A stretch of DNA of 64,000 nt, from positions 419,356 to 483,355 of the forward strand of contig JAKLKO010000001.1 of assembly GCA_023150615.1 (NCBI GenBank), given 5' to 3'. The number at the start of each line of letters is the position of its first letter. The stretch's first letter is position 1. The position numbers and the translations under genes are program-made. Of the stretch, positions 3,441 through 64,000 are shown piece after piece. Source of the DNA: Phycisphaerae bacterium. Lineage in GTDB: Bacteria; Planctomycetota; Phycisphaerae; UBA1845; UTPLA1. The notes beneath the pieces were generated by a model. It saw only the letters and a list, made by a program, of their open reading frames with translations, was not told the origin of the DNA and ran no database searches.

Positions 3441-4243
3441 AGCTGGAAGTCCTCTTCGCTCACCTTCGGCGCCTCGCCCGGCGCCTTCGATTTCTTCCAC
3501 TCGGCGAAGGCCGCGTCCGTGTCGATGTGGATCCGTCCCCGCATCTTGAAGTGGTTGTTCCCGCACAACTGGGCGCACTGGATGTCGAACTCGCCCAGGC
3601 GCGCCGCCTCGAACCAGATCGGGATCGTCATGCCCGGAATCACGTCCTGCTTGACCCGCAGCGCCGGGACCGCGAACGAGTGAATCACGTCCTTCGACGA
3701 CAGCCGCACGATCACCGGCTTGTTGACCGGCACGTGCAGTTCGTTCACCGTGATGATGTCATCCGTCCCGTGCGGATCGTTCGGATCCAGACCGATCAGG
3801 TTGTCCGGTGCGATGAACTTCGGATCGGTCCGGCCGAACACGCCGTCCGCCCCGGCATAGTGCCCGTTCCAGGCGAACTGCTCAGCCACGACGCGCACCA
3901 CCTCCGACTCCGCCTCGCTCGGAAACTGGTTCTTCACCCGCGCCAGCACCGGCACGGCAAAGGCCAGCAGCAGCACGGCCTCGAACACGGCAACCCCGAT
4001 CTCGGCGTACTTCGACGCCTTCGCCTTGATCACCACCGCGTCGGCGCGATGCCCCGGCCGCTGCCGGAACCGAACCAGGCAGTACGCGAATACGATGCCC
4101 CATCCCACGAAAAGCACCGCCATCAGGATGTGCAGCGCGTAAATCAGCCGGTCGATCTCGAAACCGTGCTTCGAGACATCGACCGGCAGCCACAGGGAAT
4201 ATCCGCCGGCCATCATGCAATGCGCTCCCGCCAGATTCGACAA
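3437..4243 (-). CDS. ctaC: Cytochrome c oxidase subunit II with CuA site
   Basis: 268 residues: two N-terminal membrane helices (about 30-55 and 75-98), then a periplasmic cupredoxin domain. The CuA ligands are intact in FDIQCAQLCGNNHFKM (Cys, Cys, His, Met), with the upstream His in DVIHSFAVPALRVKQD. The protein accepts electrons from a c-type cytochrome or cupredoxin and passes them to subunit I. No C-terminal heme c domain is present, so this is not caa3 type. The likely start is one of several closely spaced Met codons (4243, 4216 or 4213). Confidence 0.92.
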   Translation of the reverse strand: MSNLAGAHCMMAGGYSLWLPVDVSKHGFEIDRLIYALHILMAVLFVGWGIVFAYCLVRFRQRPGHRADAVVIKAKASKYAEIGVAVFEAVLLLAFAVPVLARVKNQFPSEAESEVVRVVAEQFAWNGHYAGADGVFGRTDPKFIAPDNLIGLDPNDPHGTDDIITVNELHVPVNKPVIVRLSSKDVIHSFAVPALRVKQDVIPGMTIPIWFEAARLGEFDIQCAQLCGNNHFKMRGRIHIDTDAAFAEWKKSKAPGEAPKVSEEDFQL

Positions 4244-4333
4244 AGGCGGGATCCGGCGATCCCGCCCTGTCGATTCCGCTGTTCAACTGGCATCGGTCCG
4301 CGACCGGCCCGTCGGCGGCCGATGAACAAACGA

Positions 4334-5146
4334 CTAGGGGTTGGAGGCGCGGGCGATCGGGCCGCTCCCGACCGTCACCTCGCGCACGTTCACGTCACGC
4401 TGCGCCGCCGCCTTGCTGTACGTGAACGTGTGCTCCACCGTCGCGCCGTCCGCGACCTCGATCGGCACTTCCATCGTGCCCCATTCCTCGTGCCAGATCG
4501 CCAGCGTGTACTTGCCGGCCGGCACGTTTTTGATCTCCCACTCCCCGCCCTTGCCGCTGACGGCGAAGAACGGATGGCTCAACACGCCCGCGTACGCGCT
4601 CATCCACGGATGCACGTCGCACTTGATCTTGACCATCACTTCCGGCCGCGTGAACGTCTTCGAGCCTTCGAGCTTGTTTTCAAGCCCCTTCTTCGGCTGG
4701 CTGAAGTTGAACTGCGCGTTCTTCTTCGGCAGCGCGTGGATGTTATGCGCCGTATCATCGTTGTTCTTGATGAGCAGCGGCTGGCCCGCGATCATCCCGA
4801 ACACGTGCGGCCGGTACATGCAGCCCTGCTGGTCGATCTCGACCGGCGTGCTCGGCGTGTCGTACTTCCCGGTCACGCCGTCCTTGAGATAGATGAACGC
4901 GTAGGGGATCGATCCATCCGGAAAGACCATCTTCCCCTGTGGGTACTGCGGCTTGCTGTGCATCGCGGCGCAGGCCTTGTCGGCGCCCATGTCGATGGCA
5001 CGCATCGACGGCTTGGCCGCGCTCAGCATCGCCTTCCCCTTGATCGTGGCCGTCCCCATCGGACCGCCCGCGAGCACGTCGGAACCCGATACCGCGACCC
5101 CGACCGCCGCAAGACACAAGACCGCAACTCGCTTCACGTTGACCAT
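4334..5146 (-). CDS. Secreted cupredoxin-like protein with C-terminal carboxypeptidase-regulatory-like domain
   Basis: 270 residues with a Sec signal peptide (about 1-26, ending VLAGG). The middle has NNDDTAHNIHALP and KIKCDVHPWMSAYAGVL, a His...Cys-x2-His-x-x-Met pattern like type 1 copper ligands. The C-terminal part (about 190-245, GEWEIKNVPAGKYTLAIWHEEWG) looks like a transthyretin-like beta-sandwich. Its place between the multiheme cytochrome and subunit II suggests a periplasmic electron shuttle from the cytochrome b complex to CuA. Copper binding is inferred from motif only. A structural role in the complex is the main alternative. Confidence 0.72.
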   Translation of the reverse strand: MVNVKRVAVLCLAAVGVAVSGSDVLAGGPMGTATIKGKAMLSAAKPSMRAIDMGADKACAAMHSKPQYPQGKMVFPDGSIPYAFIYLKDGVTGKYDTPSTPVEIDQQGCMYRPHVFGMIAGQPLLIKNNDDTAHNIHALPKKNAQFNFSQPKKGLENKLEGSKTFTRPEVMVKIKCDVHPWMSAYAGVLSHPFFAVSGKGGEWEIKNVPAGKYTLAIWHEEWGTMEVPIEVADGATVEHTFTYSKAAAQRDVNVREVTVGSGPIARASNP

Positions 5147-5250
5147 GGCGGACTCCTTCTTGAACGATTACCTGGCTTGTCGGCAACTACAGGCACGCGC
5201 CCGGAATCGCGACAGTGTTATCCATCTTCTCCCGGCGTGCAAGACACCGA

Positions 5251-8200
5251 CTACGGCACGAAATCATCGCTCCCCGCCGGCTGCGTCGTCGCTCCGGTCG
5301 TCGCCGCCGGCGCGGTCGTCGGCGTCCCTTTCGGTTTGGACGTTCCGCCGCTGCCGGATTCCTCAAACGCCGCCTCAATGTCCACTTCCGGCTCGGCCGG
5401 AGCGGCTTGCCCCTCGGTCGGCGCGGGCGTGGCCGGCGCCGGTCCTTCCGGAGGCGCGGGCTGGACCACCGTCGCGTTCCGGGCGCCAAGGTCAAAGAGA
5501 AAATCGGTCACGAGCTGGATCTGCTCGTCGCCCGACGTGCCGTAACGTCCCTCCAGAGTCGTCTTCTCGTCCGGCGGGAAGTCCTTGAACGCGCTCAGTC
5601 CGTCAACGAACAACTGCGGCATGTTCGTGCCCGGCTGGATCAACTGCGGGTTGATCAGCCAGTGGCGGACCCAGTCATAGCGCAGCCGTCGATGCGTCAA
5701 CGCGAAGTTGGGCGCTTTGATGTCCGTCGTCGTGCCCGGCGCGTACGGATCGCCCGCAACGTGGCACGCCAGGCACTTCAATTCCAGCAGCAGGCCCTTT
5801 CCAGCCTCGTATCGCTTCTCGTCGGAGCTCACGTACGACGATTCCGAGAACGGGTACGACACGTTCAGCAAGTTGGCAAGAAACTTCGCGCCGTCGATGA
5901 CCTTCTTCAGACCTGCCCGGCGCAGTTCAATCGCCTCGTCCGGAGACGACGCCGTCGACGTGTCCAGATCGTACGGCGTCGCGAGTCGATTGCGCAGCGC
6001 ATACCGCGACAGCCACTCGATCGCCGGCTGAAGCTCCGGTCGCTGGAACCACGGCGACGCGTCCGATCCGCTGCCGCCCGGCCCGGCCGGCGTGGACGCC
6101 TGCCGCTGCTCCGCTTCGATGAACGGATGCACCTCCGCGAGCCGCTTCCGGATGGCGCCGGCCTCCTGCTGCGACAGTCCGACGAAGTACTCGACCAGCG
6201 CCTGCGACTGCGTTGCATCGATGTGGAAACTCGGCATGCGGATCTTCAGCCACGGCCGCAGCATCTCCACGTTGTTCAGGAAACCGTAGAGCCACGGGAA
6301 CTGGATCTTCGCCCCTTCGCCGTACAGGTTCGGCGGCGCGTTCGTAACGTCGAACGTCCGTTCGCCCGAACTCGGATCCGGCCGCATGAAGTACTGGTGC
6401 GCGACCGCCGAGTTGCCGTCGATCGAGTGGCAGCCGACGCAGTTCAGCTCGTTCACGACGTGCCGGCCGCGGGCGATCATCCCCGACGGGCGAGTTTCGT
6501 ACGCCACTTGCAACCGCCGGTCCACCAGCGGCGGCTGCCGCGAAAGCAGGAACGTCACCAGCGCCGTCGTCTCCTCCTCGCTGAGGAAGAAATTCGGCAT
6601 CTTGAGCTTCTCGTACGGCCGCTTCAGCTTGGCACGGTCCCAGAGCCGCGGGTTGCGCAGCTTGTAATACGCAAACGCGCGATGCGTGTGCGTGATCTCG
6701 ACGTGCGGGTTCTCACCCGCGTCACGGACGAGCGGCTCGAACTCGGCCCCCTTCGGAAAGAGCGATCCGAACAGGTCCGACTGGGCCTTGCGATCCTCCT
6801 CGAACCCGGGCGCGAAGAACGCGAAATCGAGTTGCGAAAGCAGCTTCCGGGCCCACGTCGAAAGCTCCGTCCCCGTTCGCGCCGCGTTCTCGAACCCGGC
6901 GATCTTGTGGCACGAATAGCACCCGTAGTGCGTGATCAGCTTGCTCCCGAGGAACAGTAGCTGCTTGCCGGTCAGGTCCTGCTTCGACAGGATGTCCGCG
7001 ACCGCGCGCTCGCCCTGATCGCCCGGACCGAACGAGCTCGCCACGCCGCGGACGATGCGCTCGTCCAGCATGCCCAGCGCATCGCCCGGATCGGCCTTCT
7101 GATTCTCCATAATCGCGGCGGTGACCGACTGCGTGTTCTGGCCGGCGAGCTGAATCTGAACGAGGCGCTTCATCTCCGCCGCGTGCGCATCGTCCAGCGG
7201 AATCGGCTCCGGATGGAACGTGTCGTGACGCAGCGTCAGCAGGTACTCGGCCACATCGAGGATGTCCTGTTGGTTCATTCGCGCGCGGACGGCCGGGTCC
7301 TGCTCCTTCCAAAACGCGTTCTCGCGGAACAGCCTCGGCATCTTCGCCGTGCTGGAATAATGCCGCGGATCCAGCAACCAGTCGTACAGCCAGCGTCGGG
7401 CCGCGGACACCTGCTCCGCATTCGACGGGTCGGACACCAGCTTGGTGCCCATGCCGGACAGCTCGGGCGCGAATCGCGTGAACGCCGCCGGGACGTACAG
7501 CTTGGCCGGATCGGCGTCCCGACCCGCCAGCTCCGCCGCGATCCGCTCCTCGTTCGCGACCGCCTGCGCGAGCTCGCGCCGCTCCGGCGTCAGGTGACGC
7601 ATCGCATAATCCACGCGGTCGTTGCCGCTCATCGCGCCGAAGCGCGCCTTCGCCGCCTCTTTCGTCATTCCCGAATGCACGAGATCGTCGACGATCCACG
7701 TCTCCCCGAACGTCCGGCCCGACTCGTCCGTCGGGTCCTTCGCGGCCAGGTTCGCGTGACAGGCAAGACAGCCGGCATTCACGAACAGCTCCGCCCCGCG
7801 CGTCGCTTCGCCCTTCACGTCCGACGACGGCGCCGCCGGCGTAAAAGGCTTCGAGAACGTCGTCAGGTAGTGCGTCATGGCGATGACTTCGGTCTCGGAC
7901 CGGAGGATCGGGTCCGGGTCCTCGTCGCTCCGGCTCGGCGGCAGGTTGTTCTCCTGATGAAAATAGTGCGGCATCCGCGTCGACGGCCGGAAGCGCTTCG
8001 GGTACTCGATCCAGCGGTGCATGAACGCCGTCGACAGCTTCGAGCCGACGTACGAGAGGTCCGGCCCGACCTGGCGCGAGTCGTTGAGGCCCTCGACGGC
8101 ATGGCAGTTGATGCAGCCGAGCGACGTGAACAGCTCCCGGCCCTTCACGATGTTCGTCGCCGACGGCAGCGGCTCGCCGTCACGCTTCTCCAGGTCCGCC

Positions 8201-60294: not shown

Positions 60295-61134
60295 ATGCAG
60301 ATCGATGGCTCGCTCCGATCGCTGCTCCAATCGGTCTCGAAGGCGCTGCAGGCCGGTCGGCCGTCCGACGCCGTGCATCTCTTCATCAAAGCGCTCGCGC
60401 ACGACCGCTCGTTTCATCAGGGTGACCGCCCCATTCAACTGGCAAAGGCCCTCGGCAAGATGCGCTTCCTTGCGCTTGTCCGCGCGTTCGCCGATCATCC
60501 TTGCATGGCGTGTGAGAACGGAGTACATGAATGCGATGCGTGCAACGGCCGCGGCGCGTTTGACGACTGGCGCATCTGCGATTCGTGCGTTGGCATCGGC
60601 ACTTCGGACTGCGAGTTTTGCGCCGGCTCTGGATGGATAACCTATAACTACGTCCCCGACTCCCTGCGGCCCGCCGTCGCCGTCGTGCGAAGCAAGCGCA
60701 CGCTCAGTGAGGCGCGCCGGCTACTGGCGACCCCGCTTCCCGGAAACGCTGCCAGAGATCCCGCGGTTGCCCGTCGCGCCCTCGTTCAACGGCTGCTCCA
60801 ACTGAATCGTCTCATGGGAGCGGTCAACAACGCCCTCGACGCCGCGCGAGACGCGACCAAGACCGGCCGCAGCGCTGAGCACGCGCTGAGGGGGGTGGAG
60901 GCAGCCTGCCTGAAGCTGGCCATTCGATTGGATCGCGCGGCTCGGCAAGTCCTGCTTGGCCTGAAAGAATCGTGGAGGCTGGAGGCGACGCGGACCGGGA
61001 CGGCTGAAAAGCGGCGACTGTGCGAGCGCCGCGTCGCCTACTACGCCTCGCTCGTCCGGTCGCGGCACTTCAGGGGAACGAGCTTGTTCCACCCCGTCCT
61101 GTTTGAAATCCATCGCCGGCGAACGACGCGTTGA
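60295..61134 (+). CDS. Protein with DnaJ-type cysteine-rich zinc-finger domain but no J domain
   Basis: 279 residues. Four CxxCxGxG-like units in tandem at about residues 66-115: CMACENGVHECDACNGRGAF, DDWRICDSCVGIG, DCEFCAGSGW. These would bind two zinc ions as in DnaJ. The N-terminal 60 residues and the C-terminal 150 (mainly helical, Arg-rich) match no J domain or substrate-binding domain. Such stand-alone domains occur in various planctomycete proteins and in small holdases. It lies 221 bases after cusA, so a link with metal stress is possible but unproved. Confidence 0.68.
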   Translation: MQIDGSLRSLLQSVSKALQAGRPSDAVHLFIKALAHDRSFHQGDRPIQLAKALGKMRFLALVRAFADHPCMACENGVHECDACNGRGAFDDWRICDSCVGIGTSDCEFCAGSGWITYNYVPDSLRPAVAVVRSKRTLSEARRLLATPLPGNAARDPAVARRALVQRLLQLNRLMGAVNNALDAARDATKTGRSAEHALRGVEAACLKLAIRLDRAARQVLLGLKESWRLEATRTGTAEKRRLCERRVAYYASLVRSRHFRGTSLFHPVLFEIHRRRTTR

Positions 61135-61161: not shown

Positions 61162-61618
61162 CTATCCGAGGCGCGTGGTCCGCGGCGGCGCGGCATCCAG
61201 GCCCACGGCCTGGGCGACGACAAACGCCACGGCCTCGGCCTCCGTCTCGCGGACGGTCTTGCCGGCCGGGCGGTCCTCGCCGCGATGCTAACGCTCGTGC
61301 GCGAGTTCGTGCGAGATCGGCGTCGCGCCCGCCACTGCGGTTCTCCGACTTGCGGAAGACCATCGGTGCGATGATGACGATGCCCTTCTCGCCCTGGCGG
61401 ACGTAGCGGCCCATCTGCTTCCACGTGTTGAAGCCGGCGACGTGCGTCGCGTCGGGCTTCTGCGACAGGATCACCATGACGTTCCCGAAGCTGTACTTGT
61501 GAAACTTCGCCAGCATCGACAGGTAGCGGGTAAGTTCTTCGCTCTTGCCTGCGGCGAGTGCTTGGCTCAGTTGTTCGAGGGCCTGGTCGGCGACTTTCTT
61601 TGCTTGTTCGGCTTTCAT
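61162..61618 (-). pseudogene. Broken ArdC-like antirestriction/metallopeptidase gene
   Basis: From ATG 61618, with GGAG eight bases before, the frame reads MKAEQAKKVADQALEQLSQA, LMLAKFHKYSFGNVMVILSQ-like sequence and AGFNTWKQMGRYVRQGEKGI, the ArdC N-terminal ssDNA-binding domain. After FRKSENR the HELAHER zinc motif appears in another frame, followed by an in-frame TAG and then GKTVRETEAEAVAFVVAQAV. At least one frameshift and one stop disrupt the gene. ArdC is carried by conjugative elements, so this marks a decayed mobile element. Confidence 0.72.
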
Positions 61619-61960: not shown

Positions 61961-63253
61961 CTACTCATTCGCCAAGACTGAGGCCCAGTTGCGGAGATGT
62001 TGAACCGGCGATAACAAGGGGTCAGTCTGGTACTTCGTGAATGCTTCTTGTAACGCTGTCGAAAACGCAACGCGAGTCGTACCTCCCCGAAGGGCATCGA
62101 TTTCACGCTTCCTTGCCAGCATGAAATGCTCGCGCGATTCGGTATCGTCGAGCGTACCAGGGTCAGGCTTGCGGCCACACACTTCACAATCGCAGCGCAA
62201 ATCGGGGTACTTTGAGAAGTCGATGCGGCGCGCCTCTGTCGCAATCTGAATTTTCTTTTTCAGCAGGCTCACGTAGTAGCGCGGGGGGATCATGCCCTCA
62301 ACATCAACGTCTTGTGTTGACAACTTGCGCTCGGCATAACAGATGCCGCAACCGAAACCACTAAGTCCAGCAAAGTGCAGCACTAGCGAAAACGCATCGC
62401 CGTAGAGCAGGATGATCGGCTTGTCCGACTTTGCTAGGCCTTCTACAAAGCCGAACACCGCGGCCAGGGCACCGACATCCTGGTCGCTGGAAAACCCATC
62501 CACCCAAAGCAGATAACCGTCGGGTTTGGCCTCGGCATATTTAGATATGAACAGGGCGGCGTTAAGACTCAGTGACTGAGGCCCCGCGAGTATTACTGGG
62601 AAGACGGGAAGCGTTGTTTTCGCTTTCGTCCTTACCAAGAGGTCTACATTTACCTCCAGCCATGCCGGAACGTCGGAACCGCCGAGTGAAAAGTATGGTG
62701 GTACGATGCACATCGGCGGGTTCGCACCACCGGTCATTGGCTTTCCCTGTTTGCGAGCATATTGTTCGTATTTGCGGTACTTTTCTGGAAGCTCCGACAG
62801 GAGCCTTGTCTGAAACTCGACGACACGGCCGACAAGTTCATCTGCCGCGGTGTTTGCAGAAAAGTCCTGCGGGATGAGAGGCCGGTCCTCACCAACAACC
62901 GTCTCGACTAGTCCAGCGTAATGTTGTTCCACCAACTTTGAGAATGACCGCTTAAGGTCCCCCTTCTTTTTGCGGCCTGTTGTATCGCGTATGGTGCGGC
63001 CCGTTTTCCGGTCCCTCACGAATCGCTTCAAGAGCGCGGTGTCGCCCGCAAAAAGGTACGTCATTGGGTCGATCAGGTATGGCTTCTGCAACGAACCAAT
63101 GAACTCGGCGCAGAATGCGGAGTAGTACGACGCGATGTGCGCAGGCACAATTACGCCGTCATAAGCGTCGCGTCGGCGCTTGAACAATTCCTTCTCTTTA
63201 GTCGGTCCGAGCCTGTAAAAGCACCAAGGCCCGGGATCGTTTGGCAAGGGCAT
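61961..63253 (-). CDS. TGT-superfamily-like protein (DpdA-type transglycosylase candidate)
   Basis: 430 residues of TIM-barrel-like alternating strands and helices (VPAWLEVNVDLLVRTKAKTT, LPVFPVILAGPQSL, KPDGYLLWVDGFSSDQDVGA, KPIILLYGDAFSLVLHFAGL). A C-terminal zinc-type motif CDCEVC (residues 354, 356, 359) plus His376 (REHF) is the C-x-C-x2-C...H arrangement of tRNA-guanine transglycosylases and DpdA DNA-deazaguanine transferases. No catalytic Asp can be assigned by eye. It overlaps the upstream nuclease-like gene by 56 bases, implying a joint system, possibly base modification with a nuclease. Assignment to the superfamily is tentative. Confidence 0.5.
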   Translation of the reverse strand: MPLPNDPGPWCFYRLGPTKEKELFKRRRDAYDGVIVPAHIASYYSAFCAEFIGSLQKPYLIDPMTYLFAGDTALLKRFVRDRKTGRTIRDTTGRKKKGDLKRSFSKLVEQHYAGLVETVVGEDRPLIPQDFSANTAADELVGRVVEFQTRLLSELPEKYRKYEQYARKQGKPMTGGANPPMCIVPPYFSLGGSDVPAWLEVNVDLLVRTKAKTTLPVFPVILAGPQSLSLNAALFISKYAEAKPDGYLLWVDGFSSDQDVGALAAVFGFVEGLAKSDKPIILLYGDAFSLVLHFAGLSGFGCGICYAERKLSTQDVDVEGMIPPRYYVSLLKKKIQIATEARRIDFSKYPDLRCDCEVCGRKPDPGTLDDTESREHFMLARKREIDALRGGTTRVAFSTALQEAFTKYQTDPLLSPVQHLRNWASVLANE

Positions 63254-63716
63254 GTTCTAAGTCTCCAATATTCCGCAGTTTCTGCGACTGTGTTGCGTGG
63301 CTCAGCGCCGTTTTAAGATCGCGGTAATATCGTCGAATGAAGTAGCCGTTTCGCCTCGCACGAATGAGAATACGGGCTGTGCCGTCGACGGCGATCAATC
63401 CAACATCATACGAAGCGAAGAGCGCTGCCTCTCTTTCGGCCAGTCGGGTCGCGAGCTTAGAAGGCACTGCCACATACGAAAGTTGTGCCGCTAACTGGTT
63501 CAGGGCTGCCTGCTTAAATGCGCTCCGCCAATCGCTCAATTTTGTTTCGACAGCATAGAACCGTGCCAGCGTGGGCGTGCCAAAGAGAAGATCAATGTGC
63601 TTTCCGAAAAATGGCACCTCCGCGAACACACGCGAATGGTCGCTGAACAGCGACAAGAGCGGCAAATAGAGGTCGCTCTCGCGTCGGCAAATGGGATTTG
63701 GTGGTTCTGCGGCCAA
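63198..63716 (-). CDS. PD-(D/E)XK nuclease-like protein
   Basis: 172 residues from a TTG start, two bases after the previous stop. The nuclease-core pattern is visible: VFAEVPF (Glu33), KHIDLLFG (Asp42), FYAVETKLSDW (Glu57-x-Lys59) and a following helix with Gln69, which is the PD-(D/E)XK arrangement. Other residues resemble small MmcB-type or restriction-endonuclease-like proteins. Pairing with a TGT-like protein suggests a restriction or defence function. A DNA-repair role is the alternative. Confidence 0.55.
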   Translation of the reverse strand: MAAEPPNPICRRESDLYLPLLSLFSDHSRVFAEVPFFGKHIDLLFGTPTLARFYAVETKLSDWRSAFKQAALNQLAAQLSYVAVPSKLATRLAEREAALFASYDVGLIAVDGTARILIRARRNGYFIRRYYRDLKTALSHATQSQKLRNIGDLEHALAKRSRALVLLQARTD

Positions 63717-63718
63717 GA

Positions 63719-64000
63719 TTACTCGCCCTCCGGCTCAATGATCCGGTTGACCAATCCGAAGAAGCGACCGTCGAGGAACCACATCACGGATACCGAACCC
63801 AAGAATCCGCACATTCCGGTCGCAAGCGCGACCATCCACGTGACGACCAGCCACCTCGGCATCGTCACCCAAATCGAGAGCAATGCGAGTGTAGTGATGA
63901 CCACGGAGCCCCAAATGCAGCCAAAGCTCATGTGACTCGCGGCAGACAGATAACGAAACAGCCGGCGTATGCGATTCTGCGCGTCGAGGTCGGTGGCGAG
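63719..64000 (-). CDS. Small membrane protein (5' end outside the window)
   Basis: The minus-strand frame stays open to the right edge (LATDLDAQNRIRRLFRYLSA, then ASHMSFGCIWGSVVITTLAL), so the ATG at 63931 need not be the start. Two membrane helices (IWGSVVITTLALLSIWVTM and LVVTWMVALATGMCGFLGSV) and an acidic C-terminus EPEGE are present. The stop is two bases before the start of the nuclease-like gene, so the three genes probably form one operon. Function unknown. Confidence 0.6.
   Translation of the reverse strand, partial: LATDLDAQNRIRRLFRYLSAASHMSFGCIWGSVVITTLALLSIWVTMPRWLVVTWMVALATGMCGFLGSVSVMWFLDGRFFGLVNRIIEPEGE

Follow-up and report, generated by a model that had tools for sequence, protein, structure and literature searches.

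Gene organization at the end of the window

The window, a stretch of 64,000 nucleotides, ends inside an operon of four minus-strand genes, which we denote A, B, C and D. The genes and the features that flank them are as follows, with L002 as the locus label of the window copy.

61334-61606 (contig C11:480689-480961), minus strand: ArdC N-domain remnant (PF08401, E 1.5e-10, profile positions 3-101 of 123)
61961..63253, minus strand: gene D, 430 aa, TGT-fold protein by AlphaFold2 model and structural matches
63198..63716, minus strand: gene C, 172 aa, PD-(D/E)XK nuclease fold, overlapping D by 56 bases
63719..64279 (L002 11719-12279), minus strand, with only the C-terminal part, to 64000, inside the window: gene B, 186 aa, small membrane protein
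64276-64845 in window numbering, beyond the window (L002 12276-12845), minus strand: gene A, 189 aa, SocA/Panacea-like protein
L002 13004-13666: integrase C-terminal fragment (PF00589 positions 122-167)

The original prediction described a three-gene operon that begins with the membrane protein. The three genes and their spacing are confirmed, with C and D overlapping by exactly 56 bases, 2 bases between the end of the B frame and C, and B adjoining C, but the operon extends past the window end to a fourth gene, A, which comes after B when the contig is read onwards and overlaps it by 4 bases.

The G+C content of the operon is 54-57%, compared with 64-70% on either flank. On the far side of A the integrase fragment lies next to a tRNA-Gly gene, and the two likely mark a decayed integration site; an exact 14-mer search finds no second att copy of the tRNA-Gly. 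The decayed ArdC gene noted next door is real, matching ArdcN over part of the profile, and is a flanking neighbour outside the four-gene system. We find that the G+C dip, the integrase fragment, the tRNA-Gly and the ArdC remnant together make the window operon look horizontally acquired. The genome has a second ArdcN match, on contig C5, and a plus-strand ORF of 279 aa adjoining the remnant (window 60295-61134) encodes several CxxC pairs and resembles a DnaJ zinc domain at a level that is not significant (Pfam E 0.66).

Predicted folds of C and D

The structural model of C (pLDDT 87.7) aligns best with SPO1766 (3dnx, Z 13.4), a protein to which the C family profile also leads (E 0.0018), and with the PD-(D/E)XK nucleases EndoMS, NucS, XisH and PaqCI (Z 8.3-9.7; NucS/EndoMS Z 8.5), which bears out the nuclease-like fold proposed from the sequence. 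The residues first singled out in C, Glu33, Asp42, Glu57-x-Lys59 and Gln69, are present and conserved across 26 homologues: E13, D42, E57, K59, Q69 and G106 do not vary, and E33 is kept in at least 90%. C combines a predicted alpha-beta-beta-beta-alpha-beta core of the PD-(D/E)XK superfamily with a conserved E...D...ExK...Q motif.

The TGT fold is known for base swapping in tRNA and DNA, and D was proposed to be a barrel-like member of this group. Its AlphaFold2 model (pLDDT 87.4, pTM 0.88) agrees: TGTs stand at the top of the PDB, all 50 of the 50 matches listed by a second aligner, VIA, are archaeal, mammalian or bacterial TGTs (Z 21.4-23.4), and Foldseek returns only TGTs below E 0.001 (QTRT1, E 1.2e-5). 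The similarity is a TIM barrel that covers most of D, as in the alignment with 1iq8 (Z 23.4, 299 residues, rmsd 3.0), followed by the C-terminal CxCxxC...H motif that had been read from the sequence and that we locate at C354-x-C356-x-x-C359 and H376. The three cysteines are kept in 26 of 27 D homologues and the histidine in all 27, forming a putative zinc site from sequence only. D nevertheless differs from TGT, arcTGT and QTRT1 (PF01702) in being only 11-16% identical to them, and none of 28 family members matches PF01702; a PF01702 search of the window's own genome finds the canonical TGT only. The alignment of the D profile with 24 canonical TGTs is not significant, so it is the fold, the zinc motif and the order of motifs that link D to the TGTs.

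For the same reason, the residues of D are mapped onto TGT by motif and strand order. Short D-family motifs follow the first three barrel strands, G-T, A-N and I-D62-P-x-T in turn, and would correspond to VGT, LANTYHL and TDSGGFQ of the TGTs, respectively. On this mapping, D62, invariant in 27 of 27 homologues and part of the motif I-D62-P63-x-T-x-x-F68, would stand where TGTs have their general-base Asp; the guanine-binding Asp would be replaced by A/P185-186, and the nucleophile Asp by H/C/Y302. D thus seems to be without the TGT nucleophile, and transglycosylase chemistry in this family is doubtful.

The collections that we searched do not name the family. No D family exists in Pfam, NCBIfam or PADLOC, and when D, B and C are each compared with Pfam, NCBIfam, PADLOC and PHROGs, no convincing match appears. 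Window B, C and D have no match in PADLOC-DB 2.0.0, where the D family obtains just three hits, each from a single member and at chance level.

Distribution and two architectures

Profile and protein searches recover D homologues that are 22-28% identical to window D; against genome contigs, the window protein alone gave no match and an alignment query did. The homologues occur in the class and in the phylum of the window genome, in named genomes of Myxococcota, Sumerlaeota, Pseudomonas, Scalindua, Terriglobia, Patescibacteria, Clostridia and Verrucomicrobiota, on contigs of viral collections, on one Arthrobacter plasmid and on two Haloarcula plasmids. Scans of the viral collections yielded few loci, some of them duplicates, and phage records held no D homologue. 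Carriers make up 11 of 397 class genomes and 10 of 392 genomes sampled across the phylum, and this patchy distribution is the pattern of a mobile accessory system.

With duplicates collapsed, neighbours can be read at 34 loci, which come from about ten phyla and include archaea. A and C cluster with D in every one of the 33 loci where this is visible (the remaining locus, L071, starts at a contig end), and the C and D genes overlap or abut in most. C and D are neighbours in other genomes, as the original prediction requires, in more than 30 loci, some of them in defence neighbourhoods, and the recurrence of one gene order in so many loci is far above chance.

What varies is the fourth gene. 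In 23 loci, which we call type I, a membrane protein stands between A and C, giving A-B-C-D. In nine others, type II, B is absent and a SIR2-like gene follows D, either as A-C-D-SIR2 or as D-SIR2 with A and C beyond. B and SIR2 occur together in no locus, and a SIR2 profile built here and run on the tested B loci finds no SIR2 in them. Five loci recovered solely through the D profile and inspected afterwards are all A-B(TM)-C-D, and a sixth is D-SIR2. Mapping SIR2 onto the D tree requires at least two changes, which are forced by well-supported branches, with long branches leaving deep placement uncertain.

No effector is seen in two loci. One, L017 (the same as L086 3135-5668), has A-C-D without B or SIR2, and its A carries a long N-terminal extension. 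The other, L062 on plasmid pNG400 of Haloarcula marismortui (4024-6260), has A-C-D with no adjacent effector and lies beside an HNH endonuclease gene and ParA; the sister locus on pHsi540 of Haloarcula sinaiiensis does carry SIR2, being annotated by NCBI as a SocA-domain antitoxin, two hypothetical proteins and a SIR2 family protein. Separately, L019 (594-2691, minus strand) holds a divergent pair in which D comes before C, the opposite of the usual order, alongside a restriction-helicase-like gene, with a kinase-like N-terminal stretch in D; the pairing of a TGT-like with a PD-(D/E)XK protein may thus be present in further architectures.

Several loci lie among defence genes, as recognised with PADLOC models: in L028 the Gabija genes GajA (E 4e-132) and GajB (E 2e-58) come immediately after D, and DUF499 lies upstream; L031 is flanked by AbiD and by HsdS of type I R-M; L034 has a patatin phospholipase of the effector type; and L021 has a reverse transcriptase of the DRT/retron kinds. 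Other loci, such as L079 and L083, are surrounded by ordinary or housekeeping genes. The defence neighbours were selected by eye and so serve as illustration and not as a measure of enrichment.

Gene A and the exchangeable effectors

No Pfam model matches window A, but 15 of 21 members of the A family match PF13274 (SocA_Panacea) at E values up to 0.1, the best at 4.6e-5; the A proteins of L006 and L009 score under the curated cut-off. The gene in the same position on the two Haloarcula plasmids is annotated by NCBI as a SocA-domain antitoxin. B has about three transmembrane helices by hydropathy; its sequence conservation is poor, and it resembles none of the known toxin families. The SIR2-like proteins match PF13289 (E 8.6e-6) and, weakly but repeatedly, the PADLOC SIR2 models; the N163-W-D and H222-G-S motifs are kept in 7-8 of 8 sequences and G-A-G in nearly all. 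These motifs are consistent with a candidate NADase effector of the kind found in Thoeris, DSR and short Ago-SIR2, systems whose partner proteins are unrelated to A, C and D. In place of the SIR2 effector, the window copy has a membrane protein.

A small Panacea-like protein adjoining a candidate membrane toxin recalls the PanAT (DUF4065/SocA) pairs, and the operon could be read as an addiction module, in which A would serve as antitoxin to B or SIR2, C and D would have an accessory role, and the module would pay off by keeping the plasmid or island in the cell, not by stopping phage. Panacea antitoxins do neutralise membrane-depolarising or membrane-active toxins, as well as others (PMC8832971), A resembles SocA_Panacea, and copies are indeed located on plasmids and islands. 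The published pairs, however, come from operons limited to at most three genes, and the main text of that study mentions neither SIR2 nor transglycosylases (PMC8832971). The operon here is longer and contains two conserved enzyme-fold proteins; A, C and D are constant and it is the effector that varies, with SIR2 as the alternative to B; and several copies lie in defence neighbourhoods. We consider the addiction reading unlikely.

Relation to known TGT-based systems

D was originally placed with DpdA in a two-component system of modification and cleavage. The unit that we find is different, a three-gene core of A, C and D with an exchangeable membrane or SIR2 effector. In a Dpd-like system D would place a 7-deazaguanine in DNA (or tRNA), and nucleic acid that lacks this base would be cut by C. 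Dpd shares with our loci a TGT-fold protein with a nuclease partner on mobile islands; the zinc motif of D and the PD-(D/E)XK fold of C would also fit, and the host carries both queC and a canonical TGT. The other components of Dpd are not recognised here: reading the ORFs of the flanks reveals no DpdB, DpdC or preQ0/queuosine genes in the neighbourhoods, and the operons show no recognisable Dpd genes, ATPase or queuosine genes. The proposed search for queC gives a positive result for the host, with queC in 14 of 14 carriers, but among 59 background genomes the majority have full-length matches as well; queC is nearly universal in the phylum, and its co-occurrence is uninformative and unable to separate the rivals. 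Given that D seems to lack the nucleophile Asp, with H/C/Y at the mapped position, that no Dpd genes are recognised in the nearby ORFs that were read and that D belongs to no library family, we do not favour a Dpd-like reading; such a scheme would moreover leave the exchangeable effector unexplained, and we judge it improbable.

A further possibility is that the target is RNA or protein: D would place C on tRNA anticodons and C would cleave the tRNA, with B or SIR2 as a second lethal activity, or D would handle a deazaguanine-conjugated protein in the manner of Cap10. The TGT fold naturally binds tRNA, and the arcTGT-tRNA complex 1j2b is among the matches listed for D. Cap10 of type IV CBASS is likewise a TGT-family protein remodelled in an anti-phage operon (PMC11996544). 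That system differs in having a QueC-like Cap9 and a CD-NTase, neither of which is recognised in the ORFs of our loci and neighbourhoods, and we think this reading improbable. The BREX-related capture (BRC) operon also includes a TGT homologue within a defence operon (PMC12839542), together with PglZ, a BrxC-like DUF6079 protein, a STAND NTPase and HerA/FtsK, none of which is recognised here.

A candidate effector-swapping immune operon

Abortive-infection systems such as CBASS, Thoeris and Avs typically join an unchanging core to killers that can be exchanged. The swap of effectors on a recurrent operon suggests that the present loci are an anti-virus system not described before, with the fold of a tRNA-modification enzyme put to new use at its centre, and we favour a horizontally acquired candidate anti-phage system of the abortive-infection type, with a probability of roughly 0.55. 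This reading draws on what is seen directly, namely the genes and their order, the predicted folds and conserved residues of C and D, the strict alternation of B with SIR2, the patchy spread and the defence genes near several loci. It is weakened by the loci among ordinary genes, by the two loci with no effector, by the poor conservation of B and by the lack of a Pfam match for window A.

For this candidate system we propose the following scheme. The constant core would be A, C and D. Here D, with its TGT fold and zinc motif, has probably lost base swapping and would act as a sensor that binds nucleic acid or a base or nucleotide ligand, and C would be its PD-(D/E)XK nuclease partner. A would be a Panacea-like regulator that keeps the effector inactive or tethers it to the core. 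B would be the membrane executioner, a toxin replaced in other lineages by a SIR2-like, NAD+-consuming enzyme. In the order of events that we infer, C-D would sense viral nucleic acid, or damaged host nucleic acid, upon infection; the restraint on the effector would then be released; and B would depolarise the membrane, or SIR2 would drain NAD+, so that the phage is halted along with the cell.

There is a real chance that this effector-swapping operon forms a class of its own. A literature search, thin on subscription journals and preprints, found no published description of the A-B/SIR2-C-D gene set, and the family is nameless in the libraries searched though it spans about ten phyla and archaea. 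The full proposal, of a new immune class in bacteria and archaea in which a chemistry-stripped TGT-fold D and a PD-(D/E)XK protein form the sensor and interchangeable membrane or SIR2 NADase effectors are licensed by a Panacea-like protein, is more tentative, and we put it at somewhat below even odds. If true, the TGT fold would have been co-opted as an immune component, in parallel to Cap10 in CBASS, and the exchange of membrane protein and SIR2 on one core would separate sensing from killing, such that recognition by the core could be tested directly with either effector.
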